From Levilactobacillus fuyuanensis (GTDB taxonomy: Bacteria > Bacillota > Bacilli > Lactobacillales > Lactobacillaceae), in the NCBI RefSeq assembly GCF_003946395.1, contig NZ_RHNZ01000003.1:124001-188000 (forward strand): a stretch of DNA of 64,000 nucleotides, written 5' to 3'. This document shows, in pieces, positions 19,202 through 20,368 of this stretch (the stretch's first letter is position 1; every line of letters starts with the position of its first letter). The notes below the pieces were generated by a model that was not told the origin of the DNA, did no database searches, and saw only the letters and a list, made by a program, of their open reading frames with translations. The translations under genes were made by a program, and so were the position numbers.

Positions 19202-19308
19202 GGTTGACTTCCCGCAGTACCCGTGCGATACTATCCAATGGTGCCAAACCAAGGTGGGGGTACGCGATCGGTGCGCAAGCATTCAGAAGGTCGCCGCACC
19301 TCACCACT

Positions 19309-19342
19309 GCCATCCCGAGTAGAACGCGGGATGGCTTTTTTT
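19309..19342 (+). terminator. terminator of MFS gene
   Basis: GCCATCCCG / CGGGATGGC stem followed by T7. Confidence 0.9.
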
Positions 19343-19356
19343 GTATAGAGAGTGAA

Positions 19357-19918
19357 GCAAGCCGCTTAGATTCTGAGCATTAGGGAAATAAGGAGCTTCT
19401 GTTCGGCTACGCCGGACAGGAGTTCCTTATTTTTCTAAGCGTAAGAATCTGGCTTGCGGAACTCGTTTCCGAGGCCGCATATTTCCGGATATTCCGGCGA
19501 GAGAAAGTCTAGCTCTCTGAATCAAAATAGCCACTAAAAAACCTCGTCGGACAGGAGAACTTAGATTTCTAAGCGGAAGAACCTGCCTTGCGGAACTCGT
19601 TTCAGAGGCCGCATGTTTCCGGATATCTTGGCGAGAGAAAGTCTAACGACCTTAACCAAAACAACCACCAACGACCTCGTCGGACAGGAGTCACTCAGCT
19701 TTCTAAGCGGAAGAACCTGCCTTGCGGAACTCGTTTCAACCAGAGTGTGAAAACGGGCGGTAGGTCCTGAGCATTAACGTAGATGAGTGCCAGCTTGGCG
19801 GAGCCGAGCCGGTGCTTATCTGGGTTAAGCGCAGGGACCTATCCGACTGAACACGTTTTCGAGGCCGCAAATTCCCAGATATTCTGGCGAGAGAAAGTCT
19901 AGCTCTCTAAACCAAAAT
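19357..19918. repeat. tandem structured repeat, four units, non-coding
   Basis: About 560 bp without a credible gene, between the convergent MFS and merR genes. Full units A (from 19357) and D (from 19761) each form a long hairpin capped by a 3-nt loop. Both share GAGCATTA on the 5' side and TAAGCG on the 3' side of an internal loop. Their outer stems differ but both pair: AGATTCT/AGAATCT in A and TAGGTCC/GGACCTA in D. A shared tail holds TTGCGGAACTCG, CGAGGCCGCA, CCGGATATTCCGG and a GAGAG/CTCTC hairpin. Units B (from 19548) and C (from 19681) hold only the 3' half plus tail. The period of A-B-C is 133-135 bp. Compensatory changes between units suggest selection on RNA or cruciform structure. 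The transcribed strand is unknown. Confidence 0.7.
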
Positions 19919-19951: not shown

Positions 19952-20368
19952 CTAGACTTCATCCCCAGGCTTATAATCCGCCCAATCCGGCCGCGGCTCC
20001 CCCGCAATCTCGGCCTGTTTAATCGCCGAATAAAATGCCACCTTCTGGGTAATGTGGCGGTGATACTTCTCAAGTTGGGCCAATTGCCGGGCTACTTCAT
20101 CTTCGTGCTCATTTAATATCGCCAAAATCTTATCCAAATCAGCACCGGTCTCTTGGTAGCTCAGGAGTTCCTGCAACTCACTCATGCTCATCCCGGAGTT
20201 CTTGAAGCAGACAATACTATTCAGTTTTTCAAGATTCGCTTCATTGTAGACACGATGATTTCCCTTCTGTTGAACATTGGGAATCAACCCTAATCGCTCA
20301 TAGTAACGGAGCGTCGATGGGGCTAAATCATACTGTTTGGCAACTTCTGAAATCGTTAATTCTGTCAT
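19952..20368 (-). CDS. MerR-family transcriptional regulator
   Basis: Regulator of 138 residues with the MerR winged helix: LTISEVAKQYDLAPSTLRYYE, then RVYNEANLEKLNSIVCFKNSGMSMSEL, followed by a long coiled-coil helix and a short tail. It lacks metal-site Cys clusters; a single Cys lies in IVCFKNSG. It is divergent from an aldo/keto reductase gene whose promoter has a 19-bp spacer filled by a near-perfect dyad, the obvious target. AdhR-like aldehyde sensing is an inference. Confidence 0.9.
   Translation of the reverse strand: MTELTISEVAKQYDLAPSTLRYYERLGLIPNVQQKGNHRVYNEANLEKLNSIVCFKNSGMSMSELQELLSYQETGADLDKILAILNEHEDEVARQLAQLEKYHRHITQKVAFYSAIKQAEIAGEPRPDWADYKPGDEV

Follow-up and report, generated by a model that had tools for sequence, protein, structure and literature searches.

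A hairpin repeat array in Levilactobacillus fuyuanensis probably belongs to an EFAR-type family of non-autonomous mobile repeats found at gene ends

Introduction

The EFAR repeats of Enterococcus faecalis, which Venditti et al. are said to have described in 2007, are reportedly intergenic, non-coding and modular, with a length that varies from 42 to 650 bp and two adjacent stem-loops of ~163-170 bp, and reportedly integrate into stem-loop targets, part of the target being lost. EFAR repeats are given as enterococcal MITEs (PMC3733652). Efa-1 of Cozzuto et al. 2008 is the same family; it occurs in E. faecalis, measures 163 nt and folds into two neighbouring stem-loops (PMC2267715). Streptococcus pneumoniae carries BOX elements, which are modular, structured, non-coding repeats of variable length with fluctuating internal modules, and SPRITE elements, which are hairpin repeats near gene 3' ends (PMC3049150). 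GTAG-REPs, in turn, supply TAG stop codons to ORFs (PMC3733652).

Here we describe a repeat array in a window of 64,000 nucleotides (the whole stretch of DNA that was analysed) from Levilactobacillus fuyuanensis. The array is probably an EFAR-type non-autonomous mobile repeat, that is, a miniature insertion sequence, whose unit is a bulged hairpin of ~120 nt (AGAG...CGTTT) followed by a lineage-specific tail. With EFAR it shares small palindromic intergenic repeats, modular variable length, a homologous hairpin of ~119 nt, composite arrays and the absence of coding capacity. Compared on architecture alone, it also resembles BOX in being made of modular, structured, interspersed repeats, although BOX elements, which lie near genes, have neither a strict orientation nor a fixed place next to stop codons, and a sequence relation is not evident. 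SPRITE consists of an 18-bp stem and a U-tract, whereas the units studied here measure 120 nt, have conserved bulges and mostly lack a U-tract. Like REP/BIME elements they are hairpin repeats, lie at gene ends and can provide a TAG stop, but they differ from REP/BIME with RAYT (Y1) in their size (120 vs 20-40 nt), in having no GTAG foot and in having no obligate Y1 enzyme. Group IIC introns insert in one orientation just downstream of intrinsic terminators; unlike them, our units have no domain V, no intron-encoded RT and no Rfam match, and are also found behind stop codons.

Results

The array lies at 19347-19918 on the + strand (572 bp) and holds two full hairpin units of ~120 nt, A and D, and two 5'-truncated ones, B and C. 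The first-pass annotation had recognised these two full and two partial units, and B and C lack the 5' half, both starting from the hairpin apex; the start that it gave, 19357, falls ~10 nt inside the element, which truly begins with the AGAG at 19347. Unit A (19347-19468, +; AGAG...CTCGTTT) scores 128.9 bits with R1, a covariance model built from 31 Levilactobacillus units of which it is one, and has the outer stems GAGT/ACTC and GCAAGCC/GGCTTGC, a 4-nt bulge GCTT and the stem AGATTCT/AGAATCT, followed by an internal loop GA/GTA, GC with a bulged A and TTAG, and an inner hairpin of ~25 bp. Its tail (19469-19545, +; GAGGCCGCATATTTCCGGATAT..GGCGAGAGAAAGTC..) is kept in sequence within Levilactobacillus, with little conserved pairing. 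Partial unit B (19546-19602, +; GTCGGACAGGAG..CTCGTTT) is a 3' half alone, starting from the hairpin apex, and its own tail runs to ~19676 (+). Partial unit C (19677-19736, +; CGTCGGACAGGAGTCACT..CTCGTTT) is again a 3' half alone and is directly followed by unit D (19742-19858, +; AGAGTGTG..GGCGGTAGGTCC..TGAGCATTAACG..GGTTAAGCGCAGGGACCTATCCG..ACACGTTT), a full hairpin of the second type (96.7 bits, likewise a training sequence), with its tail and the end of the element at 19859-19918 (+). Units A and D have GAGCATTA and TAAGCG in common and stems that differ yet pair in both, as had been noticed at the outset, and both fold far more stably than their dinucleotide shuffles, with z = -7.4 for A and -5.8 for D.

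Directly upstream lies an intrinsic terminator (19309-19342, +), and the array begins 4 nt past its T-run, leaving the terminator intact; beyond the array end there is a convergent gene for a MerR-type regulator (19952-20368, -). The terminator closes a conserved putative small RNA gene (19204-19342) with a promoter-like TTGACT-17-GATACT at 19204-19232. The putative core of ~70 nt (GGTGCCAAACCAAGGTGGGGGTACGCGATCGGTGCGCAAGCATTCAGAAGGTCGCCGCACC) is nearly identical in 27 of the 30 congeneric loci read, in neighbourhoods that differ, and the gene has no match in Rfam.

Alignment of the 31 units gives a common layout: AGAG, an outer stem, a 3x3 loop, a stem, a 4-nt bulge, a further stem and a loop GA/GnA, then a GC pair, a bulged A, TTA(G), a hypervariable inner hairpin, (C)TAAGCG... 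and a final CGTTT. Both sides are altered in 28 of the 43 pairs, with outer-stem variants such as GAGT/ACTC, GCGT/ACGC, GTGT/ACAC and GTGC/GCAC, and also GC/GC changed to GG/CC. Across these sequences 95.9% of the cells pair, against 81.1% after shuffling, and changes on both sides number 211 cells against 66.9 (sd 7.2) in shuffles, figures that are inflated by related copies and by a structure derived from the alignment itself; when the partner is slid by 1-3 columns, pairing falls to 35-49%. Given the effect size and the stem examples, compensatory change is without doubt far above chance despite this inflation, so the selection for structure proposed from the two window units gains support once their relatives are added. 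The tails behave otherwise. The pairing CCGGA/TCCGG versus CCAGA/TCTGG, to which the first-pass annotation had also pointed, does occur in A and D, but across the 31 tails no helix is conserved at this position; all that remains is a weak closure by GCC/GGC, which lacks real covariation.

In an alignment of 120 units, which was fitted to the model, G-T pairs outnumber A-C pairs by 493 to 21. This excess implies that conservation acts on the folded top strand in single-stranded form. A double-stranded cruciform or a palindrome read by a protein would treat G-T and A-C alike and is ruled out by the asymmetry. For the conserved single strand, the G-U excess makes RNA more natural, and more likely, than single-stranded DNA.

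The family is widely dispersed. The genome of L. fuyuanensis has 33 BLAST matches spread over more than a dozen sites and at least 24 units by covariance model search, and BLAST matches were found in 25 of the 36 genomes of the genus. R1 detected homologues in 109 of 201 Lactobacillaceae genomes and in 21 of 40 genera, the covariance-model search being the check for relatives that had been suggested for the two window units, and it also matches genomes from other families within Lactobacillales. Levilactobacillus, Lactiplantibacillus, Companilactobacillus, Pediococcus, Lapidilactobacillus, Loigolactobacillus, Paucilactobacillus and Lentilactobacillus are the genera among the matches listed by a pattern scan. 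Neither the window nor 20 loci of related genomes gave an Rfam match above the gathering score, and the matches at permissive thresholds were weak and of the miRNA type that any long hairpin gives. The window unit has no DNA similarity in the plasmids or phages searched, and other units gave short matches in only two 'plasmid' records of ~590 kb, from Aerococcus tenax and Latilactobacillus curvatus (L384, CP127381.1, and CP117684.1), which carry fragments of the family and whose size suggests chromosome pieces or chromids. A pattern scan of IMG/VR returned a single match without the fold, attributable to chance, and on inspection the RYYYAAC/GTTRRRY boxes of integron attC sites were not seen.

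The connection to EFAR required two covariance models in succession. R1 finds 21 units in one Enterococcaceae genome (we infer family names outside Lactobacillaceae, partly from 16S), and when searched directly in G479 it returned nothing at E<=1. We take G479 to be E. faecalis, since it has 100% identity to the 16S V1-V2 sequence of this species. A second model, R2, made mostly of Enterococcaceae and Carnobacteriaceae-like units with the sequence of G479 left out, finds 25 units there (best E 9e-18), as well as 111 and 136 units in two Enterococcus-like genomes and 98 in a genome of another family (f9); it finds none in the single Streptococcaceae-like genome searched (G231). The G479 copies are ~171 nt long and consist of a 119-nt hairpin and a second, terminator-like stem-loop, with homology that stops sharply on both sides, which fits the published description of EFAR/Efa-1. 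As a conserved helix, this second stem-loop is absent from the 31 Levilactobacillus tails, and we therefore regard the Levilactobacillus units as EFAR relatives and not as EFAR sensu stricto. The first reading of the array as possibly undescribed, with no family known to fit, thus finds no support at the level of kind.

The position of the units relative to genes is precise. Among 125 units, 52 start at -2 to +12 nt relative to the stop codon of the upstream sense gene, where the element's own AG often completes a TAG, while 31 start no more than a few nt past a T-run and about 20 adjoin a preceding unit directly; the 8 nt upstream of these 125 units hold no constant motif, neither GTAG/CGTC nor another tetranucleotide at the hairpin foot. 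An independent sample from named genomes corroborated the placement: 63 of 80 first units lie behind a sense gene, and 35 of these 63 are within -3..+12 nt of its stop codon, against 4.9 expected under uniform placement in the gap. Units are thus oriented on the sense strand, and directly before them stands a stop codon, the T-run of a terminator or a further unit; about a quarter sit behind a terminator. The sampled E. faecalis copies differ in lying 12-32 nt from the stop codon, the Levilactobacillus ones being mostly at -2..+6. On species-level genomes, such exact adjacency may reflect either targeted insertion or the later loss of spacer DNA, and we know of no mechanism for insertion a few nt from a stop codon.

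Comparison of related genomes showed gain, loss and rearrangement of units. The terminator and promoter-like region of the putative small RNA of the window are present in 27 of 30 congeneric loci, and the repeat lies behind this terminator solely in a clade of seven species that have the upstream gene in common; G006 and other relatives carry the same terminator without a repeat. The stop codon of a multicopper oxidase gene (L094-L123) is a hot spot, where most Levilactobacillus species have a unit at the identical point and a few clades have none; arrays, modules and copy number differ there even between species with 92-94% flank identity, and the stop-adjacent unit is followed by a terminator. 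At another syntenic site a full unit in G014 corresponds to an internal-deletion scar in G030, in which the 3' part alone is kept, and to an empty site in G016, with an identical intact terminator upstream in all three; the scar shows that at least some 5'-truncated units come from internal deletion. Inner hairpins and outer stems are swapped as well: an orthologous site bears a type I inner hairpin in one species and type II in another (L020, L060), which indicates that the conserved GAGCATTA/TAAGCG is where one module is exchanged for another. Single units span ~200 bp, and besides this module shuffling they grow head-to-tail. L165 (G209:C1:11900-13500) has an exact head-to-tail row of five complete units, each right behind the CGTTT of the previous one. 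At the sites compared, diverging downstream flanks leave target-site duplications unreadable, and the outer stem GAGT/ACTC amounts to a sort of terminal inverted repeat. Between the two possibilities first raised, an RNA or a mobile repeat, it is the mobile repeat that gains support, given dispersal, presence and absence in siblings, tandem growth and deletion scars; a free-standing RNA gene is not supported.

Discussion

Units that are dispersed, gained and lost between siblings, exchanged by module and yet faithful to the fold of one strand are what leads us to consider the array probably an EFAR-type mobile repeat. The same observations bear on several other explanations. The units could be RNA elements of the 3'-UTR that bind a protein or stabilise mRNA and are maintained by the host through selection for gene expression, with dispersal being secondary. 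The RNA-like covariation, the conserved GA/GnA loops, bulged A and 4-nt bulge, the G-U excess on the sense strand, the occupation of identical gene ends across many species and the terminator downstream of the stop-adjacent copies at the multicopper oxidase locus are all compatible with this. We nevertheless think it unlikely, since about a quarter of the units lie behind a terminator, where they would normally not be transcribed, number and module type vary between species at 92-94% flank identity, one site is full, scarred and empty in three siblings, the neighbouring genes are diverse and the family is absent from many genera. That the units are instead intrinsic terminator cassettes, similar to SPRITE of S. 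pneumoniae, is very doubtful. It is true that TTATTTTTC follows the type I inner hairpin, that 19388-19434 of the window scores as a terminator and that an SDR locus in G014, G016 and G030 has no other terminator past the gene; but many types have no U-tract (type II and the Companilactobacillus types), a good terminator already precedes the copy in the window and about one in four other copies, and at the multicopper oxidase locus the terminator comes after the unit.

How the units move is a related question, and a bulged hairpin on one strand brings to mind a REP-like element of single-stranded DNA, its folded top strand being recognised and moved by a Y1 transposase of the IS200/IS605 type (RAYT-like). 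Y1 is indeed somewhat commoner with the element (41/109 element-bearing vs 17/92 other genomes, p=0.003), and the units supply TAG stops, as GTAG-REPs do (PMC3733652). This explanation is improbable, to our mind, given that 68 of the 109 element-bearing genomes have no Y1 domain, among them some with the maximum unit counts scored, that the hairpin foot has no constant GTAG or other tetranucleotide and that no Y1 gene was seen between flanking units. A retroelement, its transcript being copied by a reverse transcriptase that switches templates to the 3' ends of other transcripts, would account for units that are always in sense, directly past gene ends, terminators or another unit, and for 5'-truncated units that begin at the hairpin apex; we judge it highly improbable, because RVT_1 is missing from the genome of L. 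fuyuanensis and from 80 of the 109 overall and shows no association with the element (29/109 vs 21/92, p=0.62), at least one 5'-truncated form came from deletion, and insertion is 4 nt past the end of the T-run and not at it. Judged by co-occurrence, neither Y1 transposase nor reverse transcriptase is an obligate partner, and the search for Y1 and RVT_1 domains across the 109 element-bearing genomes revealed no mobilising enzyme. A long shot would be an expression-guided mobile element, present across the order, for which a machinery without resident RVT_1 or Y1 copies the folded RNA or joins it to the 3' ends of mRNA; just as speculatively, the targets of this element would be ends made by terminators, stalled or cut mRNA at stop codons and the end of a previous unit.

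For the EFAR-type mobile repeat that we favour, a factor acting in trans may recognise the folded single strand and copy or insert the repeat. Insertion or survival would favour the 3' ends of transcription units, possibly because the reading frame and the terminator are both left unharmed there. Units that lie past a stop codon but ahead of the native terminator would be transcribed as 3'-UTR hairpins and might alter decay from the mRNA 3' end, while the window copy, lying behind a terminator, would be transcribed by read-through only. A repeat class known from one species (EFAR) becomes an order-wide structured family, of which one Enterococcus-like genome can hold more than 100 units; shown here are this range, the RNA-like covariation and the precise placement at gene ends. 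The covariation tells which strand and which fold matter, and the adjacency to stop codons and terminators is a sharp clue to how the repeats move. Since Rfam has nothing for these units, the covariance models can also serve as an annotation tool.

EFAR insertion is reported to delete part of a stem-loop, and here, by comparison, the upstream terminators are intact and a downstream hairpin differs between filled and empty sites in one case. This concerns G014 (C1:84328) against G016 and G030, in which the flanks are identical and the downstream hairpin of the convergent gene differs between siblings, as if terminator hairpins themselves had been swapped in this one region. At two other loci (L171:595-610 and L160:370-388), units directly follow the terminator of a T-box-like leader (GCGGTACCACC..TTTTTTT|GAAGAGTG).
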